This document shows positions 57,777-64,000 of a stretch of DNA of 64,000 bases, piece after piece (within the stretch, counting starts at the first letter, position 1; each line of letters starts with the position of its first letter). The translations under genes were made by a program, and so were the position numbers. The notes under the pieces were generated by a model. The model worked only from the letters and a program-made list of their open reading frames with translations. It searched no databases and was not told where the DNA came from. Source of the stretch: Lacinutrix sp. Bg11-31 (GTDB taxonomy: Bacteria > Bacteroidota > Bacteroidia > Flavobacteriales > Flavobacteriaceae); assembly GCF_002831665.1 (NCBI RefSeq), contig NZ_CP025118.1, forward strand, positions 2,480,001 through 2,544,000, read 5' to 3'.

Positions 57777-59147
57777 ATGACTAGAAAATTACTTTTTTTA
57801 CTCGCTATATTACCTTCGGTATTATTCGCACAACATACAATTAAAGGCACTTTTACGCCTGCCGAAGATTTTAAATTCGCATTCTTATATCGCGTAACTG
57901 CAGAAACTTCATTATTTGTGGCTAATGCAGATGTGGCAGAAGATGGCACTTTCGAAATGGCATTAGACGAAGCTACTATTCCTGGAACTTATCGCTTAGT
58001 TTACTCGCAACCTCAAGAGCAATTTAATTTCGATTTTATAATAAATAATAAAGAAGATATTGTTTTAAAATTCGATTTAGAAAAAGGATTAACTTTCGAT
58101 AAATCTACAGAAAACAAAATGTACAACTCTTACAACCGTAGCATGGCTTTAGTAAACAAGAGTATACGCAATTATTACGGCTCTGGTAAAGAAGATAAAA
58201 CTGGCTATTCTAAGATTTTTAATATTTTAAAAGACACTCAAAAAGAGTTCGAAAAAGCTTCAGATGGCATGATAGCTAATAACTTTATAAAAGCCTGTAG
58301 CCCATATATTCCAAACGGATTAGAAGATGTTTCTACATTTTCTAAAAACATAAAATCTAATTATTTCTCGAATATCAATTTTGGTAACAAAACACTTCAG
58401 GATTCTAACTTTTTAATTAAAACTACTATAGATTATGTTATTGGTTTTATAGACCGAAAAAATCCTGATGCCTCTTACATGGAAAACGTAGATACAGTTG
58501 TAAAAGCGATTGGAGATAACCCGAAAATTAAAGGAATTCTTTTAGAAGTTTTATGGAATCAGTTTTCTATTGAAAATAATGAGGTTGTAGCTAATTATAT
58601 TGGCTCTAAATACTTGTTAAATAGCGCTCGCGCTAATAATGATAACGAATTAGCAAATAACATTATCTATTTTAAAAATGCGTCTATAGGTAATATAGGT
58701 CCAGATTTTAACATTGAAATAAAAGACGAAAAAGACAAAATAAAAGTATCTAAACTTAGCAAATTAGAAGGTTCTAACAACTATTTATTATTCTTTTGGA
58801 GTACAACATGTTCTCACTGTTTAGATGAAATACCTCAGTTAAAAGAATTTATAAAATCTAAAACAAAAGAAGACATCCAAGTTATTGCAATAGCATTAGA
58901 TAACGATTTATACCGTTGGAAAGAACTAACATACGATTATCCAGATTTTCTACACGTTTTTGGAGAAGGCAAATGGGATAACCCAATAGGCGACCAATAC
59001 AATGTAACAGCAACACCTAGTTATTTTGTATTAGATAAAGACAAAAAAATTATTGGTAAACCTGAAGACATTAACACTTTTAAAAAATATTTTGAAGGTT
59101 TAGCTAAAGCAAAAAAAGCAGACTCAGTTCTTGAGAAGAAGGAGTAG
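57777..59147 (+). CDS. TlpA-like thioredoxin-fold protein with N-terminal DUF4369-type domain
   Basis: 456 residues. Signal peptide to about residue 19 (PSVLFAQ), a DUF4369-like beta domain (TIKGTFTPAEDFKFAFLYR), a helical middle and a C-terminal thioredoxin domain from about residue 310 with the redox pair in FFWSTTCSHCLDEIPQL and cis-Pro in NVTATPSYFVLDKD. It is a periplasmic thiol-disulphide enzyme, as used in envelope biogenesis or cytochrome c maturation; the partner is unknown. Confidence 0.9.
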   Translation: MTRKLLFLLAILPSVLFAQHTIKGTFTPAEDFKFAFLYRVTAETSLFVANADVAEDGTFEMALDEATIPGTYRLVYSQPQEQFNFDFIINNKEDIVLKFDLEKGLTFDKSTENKMYNSYNRSMALVNKSIRNYYGSGKEDKTGYSKIFNILKDTQKEFEKASDGMIANNFIKACSPYIPNGLEDVSTFSKNIKSNYFSNINFGNKTLQDSNFLIKTTIDYVIGFIDRKNPDASYMENVDTVVKAIGDNPKIKGILLEVLWNQFSIENNEVVANYIGSKYLLNSARANNDNELANNIIYFKNASIGNIGPDFNIEIKDEKDKIKVSKLSKLEGSNNYLLFFWSTTCSHCLDEIPQLKEFIKSKTKEDIQVIAIALDNDLYRWKELTYDYPDFLHVFGEGKWDNPIGDQYNVTATPSYFVLDKDKKIIGKPEDINTFKKYFEGLAKAKKADSVLEKKE

Positions 59148-59170
59148 ATTGTTTTAGAATATAGAATTGT

Positions 59171-59199
59171 AAAAGCGAAGTTTAATACTTCGCTTTTTT
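59171..59199 (+). terminator. terminator after the TlpA-like gene
   Basis: AAAAGCGAAG / CTTCGCTTTTTT with a TTTAATA loop. Confidence 0.9.
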
Positions 59200-59238
59200 G
59201 TTTTTAATAGTTTAATTTTTCTTAAATTTACAATCTAC

Positions 59239-60423
59239 ATGACTGATATACATAAAATTAAACTTTAAAAATTACTACACAGAGCACAACATAGTATTGG
59301 TATTAATTTCGACCACAATTCTAGTTTAACTGCTATCGTTAGAACATTACCACGTGCAAAGTGGAGTAATACACATAAAGTATGGTATATTAAAAACAAT
59401 CCATCAAATTTAAAACTTATCTATAAAAACTTTAAAGGCAAGGCCGTTATAGATGGAGACACGTTTTTTAGTAAAGTCATTGTTAAACAAGAAGTAGTAA
59501 TAATCCCAAAGCATAAAAGAGTATTAAATAGAGAACAAAAATTATTACTAAATAATTTTTACAAATATTTAAAAGGAAAGCGCTACAGCCAAAGCACCAT
59601 AAATACCTACTCGTATTCTATTGCAGATTTTATTGAGTTTCACACAAATAAAAGCTTAGAAACACTAACCAATAAAGATGTCGAGCTTTATATAGAGACT
59701 GTATATATAAAGCGAAATTACAGTGTTAGTACACAACGTCAATTTATTAGTGCTCTAAAATTGTTTATTATTTTTGAGCCTATTACTAAAATAAGCAATC
59801 TAGAATTAACACGACCAAGTAGAGATCGCGCATTACCTTCTGTTTTATCTCAAAAAGAAATAATACATCTAATTAGTAAAGCAAAAAATTTAAAACATCG
59901 TGCTATAATAGCCTTACTATACTCTGGCGGATTACGTATAAGTGAGTTAATAAATTTAAGAATTGAAGATTTCCATATTAACAGAAGACAAATTTTTATA
60001 AGAAACAGTAAGGGTAGAAAAGACAGGTATGTTACATTAGCTGAAAGTTTTTTACCTTTATTACAAAACTATCTAGTTACCTACTCTCCAAAGCATTATT
60101 TTGTAGAAGGCCAAATAAAGCAACAATATACTGCTGGTAGTGTTAGAAAATTTATAAAAAAATATAAAAATGAATGTGGCATAAAAACAAACGTTACACC
60201 ACATACGCTAAGACATAGTTATGCAACTCATTTATTAGAAAATGGCGTTAATTTAAGACACATTCAAGAGCTTTTAGGACACAGTAAACCTGAAACCACA
60301 ATGATTTACACACATGTTGCCAGAAAAGATCTACTATCTATTAAAAGCCCATTAGATTTTGCTGTAGAACAATTAAAAAAAACCGATAAAGACGAACAAA
60401 ACTTCCTCTTATCCGGAAAATAA
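59239..60423 (+). pseudogene. tyrosine recombinase (XerD-like), interrupted by an in-frame stop
   Basis: The full open frame starts at ATG 59239 (MTDIHKIKL), hits TAA at 59266-59268, and then stays open to 60423. Past the stop, the reading KLLHRAQHSIGINFDHN and VRTLPRAKWSNTHKVWYIKN is the normal N-terminus of flavobacterial integrases, so the TAA falls inside the conserved region. No in-frame ATG or GTG follows before a TTG at 59761, within the core-binding domain. The catalytic set is intact: SGGLRISEL (Arg), GRKDRYV (Lys), HTLRHSYATHLL, LGHSKPETTMIYTHV (Tyr). Could be suppressed, truncated or dead. No IntI-specific extra segment is visible. Cassettes follow 38 bp downstream. Confidence 0.8.
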
Positions 60424-60441
60424 CAAGGGATAATTAGTATA

Positions 60442-60466
60442 TTTATCCACATATAACACGTTGTGT
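60442..60466 (+). other. first cassette boundary, candidate attI-like site
   Basis: Between the recombinase stop and the first cassette gene lies TTATCCACATATAACACG, then TTGTGT. GTTGTGTGCC (60460-60469) is complementary to the 3' motif GGCACACAAC of the same cassette (61002-61011). Only this half of the palindrome occurs here; the long hairpin seen at the other boundaries is absent. That is what an attI or an array start would look like. Confidence 0.45.
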
Positions 60467-60471
60467 GCCAT

Positions 60472-61020
60472 TTGAGAAAAACCGAAAATACATTGAAAAC
60501 TGAAATTATAAACCAACCATATTCTGGAGAATTTAAAGAAAGGATTTATGATATTGAAAGTCCTTGGAATTCTCAATCTTGGACTTGGATTAAGTTTATC
60601 GATGAAAATTTAAATGAAACTGTTGGACAATTTCGTGGAACGCCAAAAGAAGTGAAGTATTCGGAAAATCGGAATGAAATTATTGTTCTGACTTCTGATT
60701 ATGTTTACAGACTAAACGCTTCTGACTTGAACATAATAGAAACGGAAAGTCAACCTCAATATCAGGATTTAGAAGTTTCACCTGATGGAATTTTCTTTTT
60801 TCATAATTACTATGAAATTGAAAAAATGAACAGTTCATTATCTGACTTGACTGAAATCCAAAGTCCATTTAAAATGGATGACATCCGATTTAGAAAATGG
60901 AACGGAAATATATTGGAATTTGAGTGTGAGGAATTTACTAATTGGAGTAGAAATGAAATAATGGAATTAGACACAAACGAATGGAAAATAAAAATAAAAA
61001 CGGCACACAACACCGTATAA
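60472..61020 (+). CDS. cassette gene 1, unknown function
   Basis: 182 residues with a TTG start at 60472 (reading RKTENTLKTEIINQ...); a GTG at 60463 or a TTG at 60493 is also possible. By analogy with cassettes 2 and 3, translation begins about 12 bases into the cassette, without a clear ribosome-binding site. Soluble, Glu/Asn/Trp-rich, with strands such as SWTWIKFIDENLNETVG and EIIVLTSDYVYRLNA that look like a small beta-propeller. The stop codon is inside the attC-like element (GTATAA). Codon use (more TTG, CTG, GGA) differs from core genes. No family recognised. Confidence 0.6.
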   Translation: MRKTENTLKTEIINQPYSGEFKERIYDIESPWNSQSWTWIKFIDENLNETVGQFRGTPKEVKYSENRNEIIVLTSDYVYRLNASDLNIIETESQPQYQDLEVSPDGIFFFHNYYEIEKMNSSLSDLTEIQSPFKMDDIRFRKWNGNILEFECEEFTNWSRNEIMELDTNEWKIKIKTAHNTV

Positions 61021-61136
61021 AAATAATTGCGGTTTAGTGCTTAATCAAAGGTCGTTGCGTGTTTGTAACGTCTGATTTTCCTTCGGAAAATCCTCGCATA
61101 CAAACCCGCAACTATTCTTATACATAAACGTTCTAC
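61002..61136 (+). repeat. attC-like hairpin element 1
   Basis: Begins GGCACACAACACCGTATAA and ends TATACATAAACGTTCTAC. Nested arms: GTATA / TATAC, TTGCGG / CCGCAA, GTTGCG-GTTTGT / ACAAAC-CGCAAC, and a tip GATTTTCC-TTC-GGAAAATC. The outer ACACAAC pairs with the 5' end of its own cassette; the closing GTTCTAC starts the next cassette. Almost the same inner sequence recurs at 63741. Confidence 0.7.
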
Positions 61137-61141
61137 GCAAT

Positions 61142-61735
61142 TTGAAAAACTTACTCAAAATATTAATTCTGACTTTGATTTTGGCTTCTTGTAAAAAAGA
61201 AACTGAAAAGAAAACGGAATTGAGAAAACCTGAATTTAATCTCAAAACGGACATAACCGATTTTAAGAAAAAAATGACTGAATCGGACACAATCAAAATT
61301 TGGTTTAACCATTCTGTTTGTACATATCAAGGAGCTGAACGAATTGAAATAACAAAAAAATCTGATTTAATAAAAATAAGAACTGAATTTAAGGAAGATA
61401 CTTTTGACCAAAATCCTGAATGGAAAATTGTGTACGAAAAACAAATACCAATTACTGATACGATTTGGAAAATGGAGGAATTCTTTAAACGGAATTCTAA
61501 CCGAAAAAAATCTGAAGAAAAAGAATATGGAACTCTACAAGTTTCATACAATGGAAATAAAATTCATTATTTCACTAAAGGTTTAGGCGATTTAAATATG
61601 TTTATGGCTGACTATTTTGAGACAATGAAAAAGATACATCCAGAGAATACGAATAATATTTATGGAGTTGAAATCATCGAATTTGATGATATAAAAAACG
61701 GAGAAATAAAAGAAACGGAATTAGAACCTGAATAA
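61142..61735 (+). CDS. cassette gene 2, lipoprotein of unknown function
   Basis: 197 residues with a TTG start (61142), reading KNLLKILILTLILASC: a lipoprotein signal with lipobox Cys at about residue 17, then a Lys/Glu linker (KKETEKKTELRK). The mature part has DTIKIWFNHSVCTYQGAERI and KIHYFTKGLGDLNMFMADYF. An extracytoplasmic protein, no family recognised. It starts 11 bases after the cassette boundary (GTT at 61130-61132) and stops 7 bases before the next attC-like element. Confidence 0.7.
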   Translation: MKNLLKILILTLILASCKKETEKKTELRKPEFNLKTDITDFKKKMTESDTIKIWFNHSVCTYQGAERIEITKKSDLIKIRTEFKEDTFDQNPEWKIVYEKQIPITDTIWKMEEFFKRNSNRKKSEEKEYGTLQVSYNGNKIHYFTKGLGDLNMFMADYFETMKKIHPENTNNIYGVEIIEFDDIKNGEIKETELEPE

Positions 61736-61740
61736 AAACT

Positions 61741-61870
61741 GCGTAGAACACCGTGTATAATTAATGGCTAGTTCTAGCTTACTTACGAAAATCCTCGCGG
61801 ATTTTCTATCTGTGTTTTATTTGCTAACTTTAGTGCTTAAAACACGCAACTAATCATACACAAAACCGTC
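61741..61870 (+). repeat. attC-like hairpin element 2, 3' end altered
   Basis: Starts GCGTAGAACACCGTGTATAA; GTAGAAC is complementary to GTTCTAC at the start of its cassette (61130-61136). Arms GTGTATAATTA / TAATCATACAC and tip GAAAATCC-TCGC-GGATTTTC; the middle diverges from elements 1 and 3. It ends CATACACAAAACCGTC where the others have ACCGTTNNNN or AACGTTNNNN; the break falls at the core position and IS110-type DNA follows. Confidence 0.65.
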
Positions 61871-61904
61871 CAAGATCAATTCCTAATAAATATTCTGTTT
61901 TTTT

Positions 61905-62897
61905 TTAAGCTGCATGCTGTTGTAAAACAACATAAGGTGTTCCTCTTTTCACAACAGCAAAAGCTCTTGCAATTAGTTTGTTTCTAACATTATTTATGGC
62001 TAACATTTTATCTTTTCCTTCTGCTACTTTTCGCTTATAATATTGTCTTAATTCACTATCATGTTGTATTGCAGAAACGCTTGCCATACTTAATAAGCTT
62101 TTCATTTTTCTGTCTCCTAAATAATGACATTGTTTTCGCTTATAGATACTGGTTCCAGAACGATGCTCGAATGGCGCTGTTCCACAATAACTAGAAAAAG
62201 CACGCCAACTTGCAAAGCGTGTAAAGTTTCCTGTATGGTAAATTAATTGACTAGCAACTACTAAACCTACTCCTTTTAAACTCGATAATAATTCATAATT
62301 TTTTTGCATCGATTCATCTTGAGAAATAATCTCTTTTATCCTATCCTCTACTGATTTTACTTGCTTAGATAAATAGTCTATACTGCGTTTTAAGCTTATG
62401 CAACCAGAATCTGTGGTTGGACTAGATAAAAGTATTTTCATTTCTTTTAAAGTACCTTTAAGACCTGCATTATTTCTAACTAATTGATCCCGTAAAGCTA
62501 ACAGTCTTCCAAGCTCTAAATGAGACATACTTTTTACTGTACTTGGTTCCAACTCTTCTCTATAAAGCCAAGCATAACGTGCTATTAAAGCCGCATCAAG
62601 CTTGTCTGTCTTTTCTTTTACAATTCCCGATGAACGTTTTATTTTTAAAGGACTTTCTTCTACATAAACTATAGATTGACTAGCGAAATAAAGCGCTAAT
62701 TTTAATGAGTAATATCCTGTATTCTCAAAACAATAAAAAACGTCAATTTCATTGGTATACTTTGAAACCCATTTTAAAAGACTTTTATAACCTACTACAT
62801 CGTTAATAAACTCCTTATGTACTTCTGCTTGATAACAAAAGGCATCTATTGTTTTTTTTGAAACATCGATTCCAACGACTTCTTTGTAATTTTTCAT
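61905..62897 (-). CDS. IS110-family transposase (DEDD recombinase)
   Basis: 330 residues. N-terminal RuvC-like DEDD domain: VVGIDVSKKTIDAFCY, YCFENTGYYSLKLALYF and KEKTDKLDAALIARYAW. C-terminal Tnp_20-type domain: LSSLKGVGLVVASQLIYHTG, SWRAFSSYCGTAPFEHRSGTS and YLGDRKMKSLLSMAS, with the catalytic Ser region. Length and both domains are intact, so it may be active. It points against the cassette genes. Confidence 0.92.
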   Translation of the reverse strand: MKNYKEVVGIDVSKKTIDAFCYQAEVHKEFINDVVGYKSLLKWVSKYTNEIDVFYCFENTGYYSLKLALYFASQSIVYVEESPLKIKRSSGIVKEKTDKLDAALIARYAWLYREELEPSTVKSMSHLELGRLLALRDQLVRNNAGLKGTLKEMKILLSSPTTDSGCISLKRSIDYLSKQVKSVEDRIKEIISQDESMQKNYELLSSLKGVGLVVASQLIYHTGNFTRFASWRAFSSYCGTAPFEHRSGTSIYKRKQCHYLGDRKMKSLLSMASVSAIQHDSELRQYYKRKVAEGKDKMLAINNVRNKLIARAFAVVKRGTPYVVLQQHAA

Positions 62898-63002
62898 ATT
62901 TTTACAATTAGAGTGAATAAATATGTTGCGTTAACTACTTCCTTTATCGGGAGATTTTGACTCCTGGTATTCCAAATGGTTCTTGGCAACTGTATAGAAA
63001 GA

Positions 63003-63180
63003 GAGGACTCGTACGTGTAAGGGAACGTTATTCTAAAACACGTTATAGTTCTCCTCTTTTTCTATCTAAAGATATTTATTACAAACTAAAGGAGGACTCG
63101 TACGTGTAAGGGAACGTTATTCTAAAACACGTTATAGTTCTCCTCTTTTTCTATCTAAAGATATTTATTACAAACTAAAG
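63003..63180. repeat. tandem duplication of an 89-bp unit
   Basis: Two copies, 63003-63091 and 63092-63180, identical as far as I can read, starting GAGGACTCGTACGTGTAAGG and ending ATTTATTACAAACTAAAG. The unit lies upstream of the transposase, at the inferred right side of the IS. It contains AACGTTATTC and AACACGTTATAG, which resemble the cassette core. In one frame it reads like coding sequence (RGLVRVRERYSKTRYSSPL), but 89 is not a multiple of three. The last bases run directly into cassette 3 (GAACACGTTGTGC). Confidence 0.85.
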
Positions 63181-63200
63181 GAACACGTTGTGCTTAATTT

Positions 63201-63740
63201 ATGAAAAACATACTGCTGACATTAATAATCCTGACTTTGATTTCTTGCAATCAACTCACAAAAGAAGTTGAAAGTTCATTTTCGACCATTGGAATTAAAC
63301 TGGATAGCCTGAATAAAATTGAGGAAAATAAGATTGAAAAACATTTTAATGAAATTAACTCAAAACGAATAAAAAAATATGACGGAGAGAATTCCGCAAT
63401 GATTTATTATTCTGCAATCAAACATAATAGAATTGTTGATTCACTAATTTTAAAACTCAAATCAATTGGAGAAAAAGATTTAGAGAAGAAAAAATTAGTC
63501 GAACAATTTGAATATGCAAAAACTGACTTGAGGAATAAACTGAACACGATAACGGAATTCAATACCAAAGCGGAAATTGATTCATTACTAAAACCATCAA
63601 AGGATTTAGAAATTTTGCCGAATTTTGCTATTATTTCGGAATTTCAAAGTGGAAAATTGAATTCGACTAAAAGTGCGGAATTATTACTAAAAAAATTGAA
63701 CGATAAAACAAAAAGCGAAAAGGAACTGAATAAAAACTAA
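63201..63740 (+). CDS. cassette gene 3, lipoprotein of unknown function
   Basis: 179 residues. MKNILLTLIILTLISC is a lipoprotein signal with lipobox Cys 16. The mature protein is charged and mostly helical (EENKIEKHFNEINSKRIKKYD, GEKDLEKKKLVEQFEYAKTD), perhaps a coiled-coil periplasmic protein. No family recognised. ATG start 13 bases into the cassette; the stop TAA (63738-63740) directly abuts the attC-like element. Its leucine codons are often CTG or TTG, in contrast to TTA in the chromosomal genes. Confidence 0.75.
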   Translation: MKNILLTLIILTLISCNQLTKEVESSFSTIGIKLDSLNKIEENKIEKHFNEINSKRIKKYDGENSAMIYYSAIKHNRIVDSLILKLKSIGEKDLEKKKLVEQFEYAKTDLRNKLNTITEFNTKAEIDSLLKPSKDLEILPNFAIISEFQSGKLNSTKSAELLLKKLNDKTKSEKELNKN

Positions 63741-63873
63741 GCACAACACCGTATATAAAAAATTGCTTGTGTTAGGCTTAAACAAAGGTCGTTGCACGTT
63801 TGCTACGTCTGAATTTCCCTCGGAAATTCCTCGCACGCAAACCCGCAACTTTCCATATACAAAACCGTTGTAA
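63741..63873 (+). repeat. attC-like hairpin element 3
   Basis: Starts GCACAACACCGTATATAA and ends CATATACAAAACCGTTGTAA. GCACAAC is complementary to GTTGTGC at the start of cassette 3 (63187-63193); with flanks the match is 10 bases. Arms GTATAT / ATATAC and GTTGCACGTTTGC / GCAAACCCGCAAC, tip GAATTTCC-CTC-GGAAATTC. The core of GGTCGTTGC... to ...CCCGCAAC closely matches element 1. Confidence 0.7.
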
Positions 63874-64000
63874 CCAATTAAAACACAGATGACGTAAAGA
63901 TGTCATATGGATGACGACACCAATGCCAATGCTTTTATTTAGCTTTGCTTTCAACAATTAAACATCTCTCAATTGAAGAATAAAGATTTAGCAAAAAGAG
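63868..64000 (+). other. start of a fourth cassette, cut by the window end
   Basis: Begins TTGTAACCAATTAAAACAC after the core G at 63867. No convincing open frame is seen in these 133 bases: the ATGs at 63890, 63902 and 63911 soon reach stops. If the pairing rule holds, this cassette should end with GGTTACAAC followed by a hairpin element. Confidence 0.4.

Follow-up and report, generated by a model that had tools for sequence, protein, structure and literature searches.

A probable integron-like gene-cassette system headed by Xer-like recombinases in Lacinutrix sp. Bg11-31 and related bacteria

Integrons are the textbook platform for gene capture and shuffling, and they are defined by the integrase IntI. 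Here we describe an array of single-gene cassettes at the end of a 64,000-nt stretch of the 3.665 Mb chromosome of Lacinutrix sp. Bg11-31 (the source genome); the whole stretch, positions 2480001-2544000, is referred to as the window. We conclude with high confidence that an integron-like cassette capture system is the best overall explanation of what we observe. The evidence, all of it read from sequence, consists of the pairing between the two ends of each cassette, the junctions, the recurrence of cassettes beside new neighbours, a strand asymmetry in the predicted folds, and the position of the recombinase. The system works like an integron, and it differs from the classical ones by two firm features (a recombinase without the IntI insertion, scoring under the IntI profile cut-off) and one soft feature (the core sequence). 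An initial annotation of the window had already proposed an integron-like system distinct from classical integrons; pairing, junctions, core, insertion and recombinase position all support that proposal.

In the mechanism that we propose, single-gene cassettes would be excised in circular form. Circularisation would bring the 7-nt variable box that follows the 5' GTT together with its complement before the 3' AAC, closing the foot of a long hairpin with, in order, the R box, an unpaired spacer, a 16-bp stem and a variable tip. The substrate would be the bottom strand, which conserved G.T wobbles distinguish from the top strand, where the corresponding pairs are A.C mismatches. The Xer/IntI-like tyrosine recombinase encoded at the array head would join this strand either to the attI adjacent to the recombinase gene or to a further attC, and the exchange would take place inside CGTT. 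The circles, the single-stranded substrate and the lack of promoters within the cassettes are parts of this scheme that we infer.

Cassette ends, junctions and hairpin

The pairing of cassette ends was scored in 20 stretches from the source genome and related genomes, in which a DNA profile produces 402 hits. After overlapping hits are dropped (the weaker ones, mostly opposite-strand readings of the same palindromic site), there remain 359 sites, which have a single orientation within each stretch. Of the 339 intervals between neighbouring sites, 317 are scored and 22 have no clear AAC or GTT. For the score, the seven bases that follow GTT are set against the complement of the seven that precede the next AAC, and a match is agreement at 6 or 7 of 7. 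The ends match in 222 of the 231 cassettes shorter than 900 bp and in 273/317 of all scored intervals; random pairing matches in 3.9% of cases, and flanks that belong to a single site match in 26 out of 321. Among the stretches with scored intervals, 16/17 have at least one pairing cassette, and one (G009) has 0/2. The three end pairs that the initial annotation had pointed out in the window are all present, and its claim that the 5' and 3' ends of a cassette complement one another extends to the larger set. Homologues elsewhere with unpaired cassette ends, which it said would reduce the sites to a repeat family, were looked for and did not appear.

The eighth base of the 273 matching cassettes is an A in the core in every case, and in 249 it faces a C. 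Such a pair is a mismatch in the top strand and a G.T wobble in the bottom strand. The core takes the classical form GTTRRRY in only 13 of 325 cases, which bears out the earlier observation that it is a different one. This contrast is a soft criterion, because three control integrons from outside the Bacteroidota have GTTRRRY in only 5 of their 13 cores.

The junctions can be located by comparing cassettes that recur. Amongst the matching cassettes, 225 pairs in 31 clusters are at least 90% alike in identity and length. For the 221 pairs that have different neighbours upstream, identity at the 5' end is 1.00 from the C that precedes GTT onwards, and it is down to 0.57 at position -2, the base before that C. 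At the 3' end, compared in 218 pairs, identity stays at 1.00 up to and including GTT and then falls to 0.50 with the following base. The exact exchange bond is not resolved, because CGTT itself is nearly invariant. As an example, one cassette of a source-genome array is 99.8% identical to a cassette in another genome, where its neighbours differ. Units that never vary at G/TT, the other outcome that the initial annotation had named as speaking against an integron, did not appear either: cassettes change neighbours at GTT, in a comparison that included no strain pair of the same species.

The source genome has many sites besides those of the window. The site-start pattern AACACCGTNTA has 43 matches in the genome (not all of them sites) vs 4 for the reversed pattern. 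A covariance model built from 28 of these 43 matches identifies 75 matches at E<=1, of which 73 have E<=1.2e-4; the training sites match by construction and the E-values are rough. The window array goes on beyond position 64000, as an extension of the kind proposed in the initial annotation shows, with additional sites at 2545157 and 2547268 of the genome. The system as a whole is far larger than the 3.5 kb first described. A second array has 28 sites on one strand between 149 and 183 kb (~34 kb). Its first cassette has a site from another sequence family that obeys the same pairing. Outside both arrays there are 40 sites, of which 7 have no AAC at their start and were dropped. For 14 of the other 33, the site's own core is found at most 3.5 kb upstream (in 11 of these at 7/7), whereas boxes of other sites match in 41/634. 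The remaining 19 have no matching core upstream. Several non-array sites come after a recurrent TATATAA-like stretch, and the lone copies may include degraded ones.

Sites this alike and this numerous, 19 of them without a partner core, could also belong to an ordinary family of palindromic repeats, similar to repetitive extragenic palindromes or miniature inverted-repeat transposable elements and moved by homologous recombination between the repeats. We regard such a family as highly improbable. The variable boxes pair between neighbouring sites and not within one site, the homology of recurring cassettes ends inside CGTT, and a single array mixes site sequence families. For the arrays, the pairing between sites leads us to reject it.

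The predicted folds of the integron-like cassettes favour one strand. The 16-bp stem is 97.1% paired, and its covariation score exceeds those of 500/500 shuffles and of every slid version. All 24 distinct sequences have G.T at two of the stem pairs. We folded in silico, with DNA parameters, the two joined ends of 258 of the 270 eligible cassettes (site of normal length). The bottom strand, whose folding the initial annotation had proposed to examine, is predicted to be the more stable one in 254 of the 258, by a median of 4.1 kcal/mol. The hairpin is a little shorter than the constant 130-135 bp first described: the three sites of the window measure 124-125 nt from AAC to GTT.

The recombinases at the head of the arrays

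Sites and recombinase occur together. Among 40 genomes selected by kinship, the source included, 26 have sites and 25 have the recombinase: 24 have both, 2 sites only, 1 the recombinase only and 13 neither. Of 29 recombinase loci, 19 have sites. The adjacency first seen in the window is found in 19/19 of these, always at the attI end (293/293 sites). The direction of reading is towards the array for 12 recombinases and away from it for 7. At 15 of the 19 loci, a distance of 37-239 nt separates the first core from the recombinase match, and ahead of the core we recognise by eye a palindrome or a TATATACAATT-like stretch. In the source genome, the array at 149-183 kb has directly upstream, at ~185 kb and in the same direction, an intact recombinase of 376 aa that is 38% identical to that of the window.

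The source genome also encodes XerC and XerD (at 257978 and 1275641), which are related enzymes, and two array-heading recombinases look broken. These facts would suit an arrangement in which the housekeeping XerC/XerD process the sites, with the neighbouring recombinase as a passenger. We find this improbable, given that every locus with sites, in both architectures, has the recombinase at its attI end, and that sites and recombinase are present together or missing together in the genome counts above. To our knowledge, XerCD is also near-universal, and the sites are not.

As for the identity of the recombinase, we scanned seven array recombinases, some as match extents only, against NCBIfam. 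The top match of both source-genome array recombinases is recomb_XerA_Arch (NF040815), with 230.3 and 225 bits; its cut-off of 220 bits is passed by 4 of the 7, and also by the source XerD. The second match is the integron integrase TIGR02249, with 211.2 and 208.8 bits. All seven score 175.5-211.2 bits with this profile, below its cut-off of 265 bits, and 159-195 bits with the XerC and XerD profiles vs cut-offs of 329.6 and 335.15. The segment between the KDR and LRH motifs has 69-70 aa in 28/28 array recombinases (leaving out one in genome G008, the frames of which are split) and 75-77 aa in the source XerC and XerD. In IntI it has 111 aa in 25 of 30 rows, and the remaining five rows are wrongly picked frames. 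In a second alignment, the insertion segment has 108 aa in 14/14 IntI and 66-73 aa in 18 recombinases of other phyla. The lack of an IntI-specific insertion, reported at first for the window recombinase, holds for all 28 array recombinases, and the 18 of other phyla lack it as well.

Trees were built with a quick method, and branch support is given as the Shimodaira-Hasegawa-like approximate likelihood-ratio test (SH-aLRT), with no bootstrap. In the first tree, the 28 array recombinases are on one side of a branch with support 87, IntI forms a clade at 100, and the source XerC and XerD are separate. The second tree adds 12 Bacteroidota rows, of which 11 fall inside, and a partial recombinase linked to tet(X3); the Bacteroidota clade has support 97, with IntI apart at 100. 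The 18 recombinases of other phyla adjoin the IntI clade, adjoin the Bacteroidota clade or group with XerCD, with 83-87 at the joining forks. The predicted structure of the window recombinase, made from 14 sequences, has a mean predicted local distance difference test (pLDDT) of 81 and a predicted template modelling score (pTM) of 0.60. Its nearest Foldseek neighbours are the archaeal Xer 4a8e and XerA, followed by VchIntIA, at TM-scores of 0.37-0.54 over the query. Many array recombinases carry an extra N-terminal domain.

One could see in all this a divergent but ordinary integron, with an IntI that has lost its insertion and ordinary attC sites. The cassette logic is the same, TIGR02249 scores the array recombinases of the source genome well above its XerD and XerC (139.7 and 117.1 bits), VchIntIA is among the nearest structures, and the control integrons themselves keep GTTRRRY in fewer than half of their cores. 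We nevertheless consider it unlikely: all seven scanned recombinases stay under the integrase cut-off, the short KDR-LRH segment sets every array recombinase apart from IntI, and the Bacteroidota recombinases fall outside the IntI branch, with moderate support at the joining forks. A bolder reading, which we put forward tentatively as possible though somewhat short of probable, is that integrons arose twice. The Bacteroidota machine would then derive from a XerA-like recombinase independently of IntI, would act on folded single-stranded sites with no need of the IntI insertion and with the strand marked by wobble pairs, and would be the main cassette reservoir of the phylum.

Several observations weigh against the integron-like system that we favour. 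End pairing drops with interval length, to 34/42 at 900-1500 bp, 16/38 at 1.5-3 kb and 1/6 for longer intervals, which we read as missed sites or insertions. The 225 recurring pairs are not independent (there are clusters of 14 and 12), nor do the 40 related genomes represent 40 independent cases of co-occurrence. Two measures of the covariation of the stem are weak: 6 pairs are changed on both sides vs a shuffled mean of 4.1 (15 of 500 shuffles are as high), and the 7 pair types are not unusual vs 6.1 in shuffles (122/500). To these we add the 19 non-array sites without a core. Ten of the 29 recombinase loci have no sites; six of them have less than 310 nt of contig on the expected side, three have ~2 kb, and one (G037) has none in 20 kb. 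The recombinase heading a stretch with 152 sites in G008 (G008:C1:834259-835400) is split over several frames, either by mutation or by an assembly error. The frame of the window recombinase has an in-frame TAA at codon 10 (59266-59268), and because of it this copy may be truncated or inactive. It is possible that the copy at 185 kb, which is intact, serves both arrays in place of a dead window copy. Finally, it is an inference of ours that the adjacent recombinase is the catalyst.

The window locus and other sites of the source genome

The features of the window are collected in Table 1. The three units described initially are real cassettes; the second and third are not directly consecutive, because an IS110-family element intervenes. 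At its end away from attC-like site 2, this element has an 89-bp tandem repeat (63003-63180). With E-values of up to 1 allowed, an Rfam scan of 59000-64000 yields a single match, which is far below its threshold. Neither Pfam nor NCBIfam has a family that matches the proteins of cassettes 1-3 at E<=0.001.

Table 1. Features of the cassette locus, in window coordinates (position 1 is the first base of the window).
Feature	Position	Strand	Details
Tyrosine recombinase, array head	59239..60423	+	Xer/IntI-like catalytic domain, extra N-terminal domain
attI-like site	60424..60462	+	From recombinase stop to first core; first core 37 nt past recombinase
Cassette 1	60460..61132	+	Core GTTGTGTGCC 60460-60469; ORF (open reading frame) 60463-61020; inverse core GGCACACAAC 61002-61011
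attC-like site 1	61009..61132	+	
Cassette 2	61130..61870	+	Core GTTCTACGC 61130-61138; ORF 61142-61735; inverse core GCGTAGAAC 61741-61749
attC-like site 2	61747..61870	+	Final bases CGTC, at border of IS110-family element
IS110-family element	61872..63184, borders approximate	-	At 3' end of attC-like site 2; transposase 61905-62897
Cassette 3	63187..63869	+	Core GTTGTGCTTA 63187-63196; ORF 63201-63740; inverse core TAAGCACAAC 63738-63747
attC-like site 3	63745..63869	+	
Cassette 4, start only	63867..64000	+	Core GTTGTAACC; continues beyond window end

The ends of the IS110-family element were surveyed by exact 25-base matches only, in stretches examined from the source and related genomes. 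In the window and five further stretches, 6/6 distinct left ends come after the 3' tail of an attC. Three of four right ends are followed by AACACGTT and a core, and the fourth is the first of the two tandem 89-bp repeats of the window. The element presumably resembles the IS1111 group that targets the attC sites of classical integrons.

An ORF of at least 60 aa is found in 195/270 cassettes, forward in 189 of the 195; the longest ORF over all 270 is forward in 217 and reverse in 53. Forward ORFs have a median of 28 nt from core to start and of 13 nt from stop to inverse core. For 91 cassette proteins that were scanned, AAA/OLD-type, TIR, SEFIR and FRG domains are among the matches listed. In the array at 149-183 kb, three sets of cassettes (2/4, 8/14 and 18/25/26) are of equal length and have the first 70 ORF residues in common; the look-alike cassettes 25 and 26 adjoin each other.

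Downstream of three chromosomal genes (at 3319754, 3468931 and 3551709), a ~95 bp attI-like stretch precedes an isolated cassette, and no recombinase is seen alongside. When one of these loci is compared in two other genomes (G012 and G004), the attI-like stretch recurs there, and the gene that comes next, at or near GTT, is a different one. The result is only suggestive, because the site model identifies no attC at these two loci.

The orientation of the sites appears to follow replication. The 73 sites occupy 28 places, of which 26 agree in orientation with two fitted turning points (~0.81 and ~2.77 Mb). As an origin marker dnaA was tried and discarded: it is at 1.62 Mb, away from the turning points, and GC skew was therefore used. 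The skew, in 20 samples, turns at ~1.25 and ~2.95 Mb, and 24/28 places agree with it. Judged by the skew, the bottom strand would be on the lagging-strand template.

Distribution and relation to known systems

The initial annotation had called this a system of Flavobacteriaceae. It is indeed widespread in that family, with sites at E<=1e-4 in 167/199 genomes (166 of the 198 genera sampled; at most 17 sites scored per genome), and it also reaches beyond it. At class level, sites are found in 27 of 247 genomes (E<=0.001) and the recombinase in 133 of 247 (E<=1e-60); the site model is therefore largely a model of the family. We also searched without a site model for chains of at least three end-paired cassettes in 81 sources (80 recombinase contigs and the window). 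Chains appear in 8 of the 81, the window not among them: in Winogradskyella ursingii, Seonamhaeicola aphaedonensis, Algibacter onchidii, one further Flavobacteriaceae, one Bacteroidetes metagenome-assembled genome (MAG), and, outside the Bacteroidota, Pseudoalteromonas, a Calditrichia MAG and Paraglaciecola. The last three we take for classical integrons, hence as positive controls; their KDR-LRH segments have 89, 108 and 109 aa, and it is their cores that show GTTRRRY in 5 of 13. Reversed controls reach three cassettes in 1/81 and shuffled controls never do. In 17 class-level stretches, chosen (partly for hits of the site model) and not random, with a 1.9 kb stretch left out and three merged, chains of at least three cassettes are found in 8 (one in Flavobacteriaceae) and fewer than three cassettes in 9, and reversed controls have at most two.

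Classical integrases have a different distribution. Of 296 genomes of the phylum, 84 are over the TIGR02249 cut-off and 86 match at E<=1e-50, none of these 86 in Flavobacteriaceae or its order: 1 belongs to the same class and 85 to other classes. At least 20 Flavobacteriaceae genomes are among the negatives listed. In the excerpted text of the IntegronFinder 2.0 report (PMC9024848), the complete integron named in Bacteroidetes proper is a single one, in Salinibacter ruber.

Relatives also occur on mobile elements. A search of plasmids with the site by DNA similarity produces no match. On Acinetobacter-type plasmids, the recombinase adjacent to tet(X3) (pHH1107; L322, 4001-4900) falls within the Bacteroidota clade, with 55% identity over part of its length. 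On pHH1107, tet(X3) is preceded by a palindrome and a cassette-type core, GTT...ATT; we looked for tet(X3) as a cassette and rejected it, as no matching inverse core is found. A Chryseobacterium plasmid (L323, 7119-9250) has a related recombinase followed by same-strand genes, with two weak attC matches, one cassette with 7/7 end pairing and an IS110 transposase in the same row. Small cassettes are found in the Winogradskyella phage Peternella_1 (L375, 2260-2625; pairing 6/7) and in the Polaribacter phage P12002S (L376, 1492-1848; pairing 7/7, only the first part of the site matching). Phages may carry cassettes between hosts.

We found no description of this system in the openly licensed literature, and it may be in print elsewhere. 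The nearest report concerns Riemerella anatipestifer (PMC13148043), where, in the text available from it, a gene is integrated without homology, always with 27 bp upstream and 140 bp of attC-like sequence downstream, and the mechanism is left open. Like the cassettes here, that unit has a short 5' leader, a gene and an attC-like 3' segment in a flavobacterium, and it fits our format, in which a median of 28 nt precedes the start codon and the stop is followed by 13 nt and a ~124 nt site. This fit suggests, by analogy and with no Riemerella genome compared, that the two share one mechanism. The word recombinase is absent from the main text of PMC13148043, and its account of the integration has no attI or cassette array, so far as the available portions go; the system described here would offer a concrete mechanism for that homology-free integration.

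If the adjacent recombinase is the catalyst, then folded attC-like sites can be recombined by an enzyme that does without the IntI insertion. Flavobacteria and their relatives probably have extensive libraries of one-gene cassettes that are reshuffled, integron-like in look and movement and headed by a different kind of recombinase. The genes in these libraries, numerous and for the most part uncharacterised, invite a survey, and the system can serve to test whether integrons evolved once or twice.

The system shares with classical and sedentary chromosomal integrons the one-gene cassettes in one orientation, the complementarity of a cassette's own ends and the junction at GTT. As in classical integrons, the hairpin prefers the bottom strand, a recombinase and attI are at the head, arrays can be large, and sites occur elsewhere without a recombinase. 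Unlike in classical integrons, the array recombinase has no IntI insertion and scores under the IntI cut-off, seven variable bases and then a constant A come after GTT, A.C/G.T marks are present both in the stem and at position 11 of the sites, and the recombinase is read towards the array in 12/19 loci. The rule of orientation relative to replication that the excerpted text of PMC11023631 describes for sedentary chromosomal integrons appears opposite to that of the arrays here, our own side of the comparison being derived from GC skew. XerA (NF040815) is the closest likeness of the recombinase by profile, and the archaeal Xer 4a8e by structure. From XerC and XerD the recombinase differs by scores far under their cut-offs, by its separate clade, by the cassette arrays that it heads and, in many cases, by its extra N-terminal domain.

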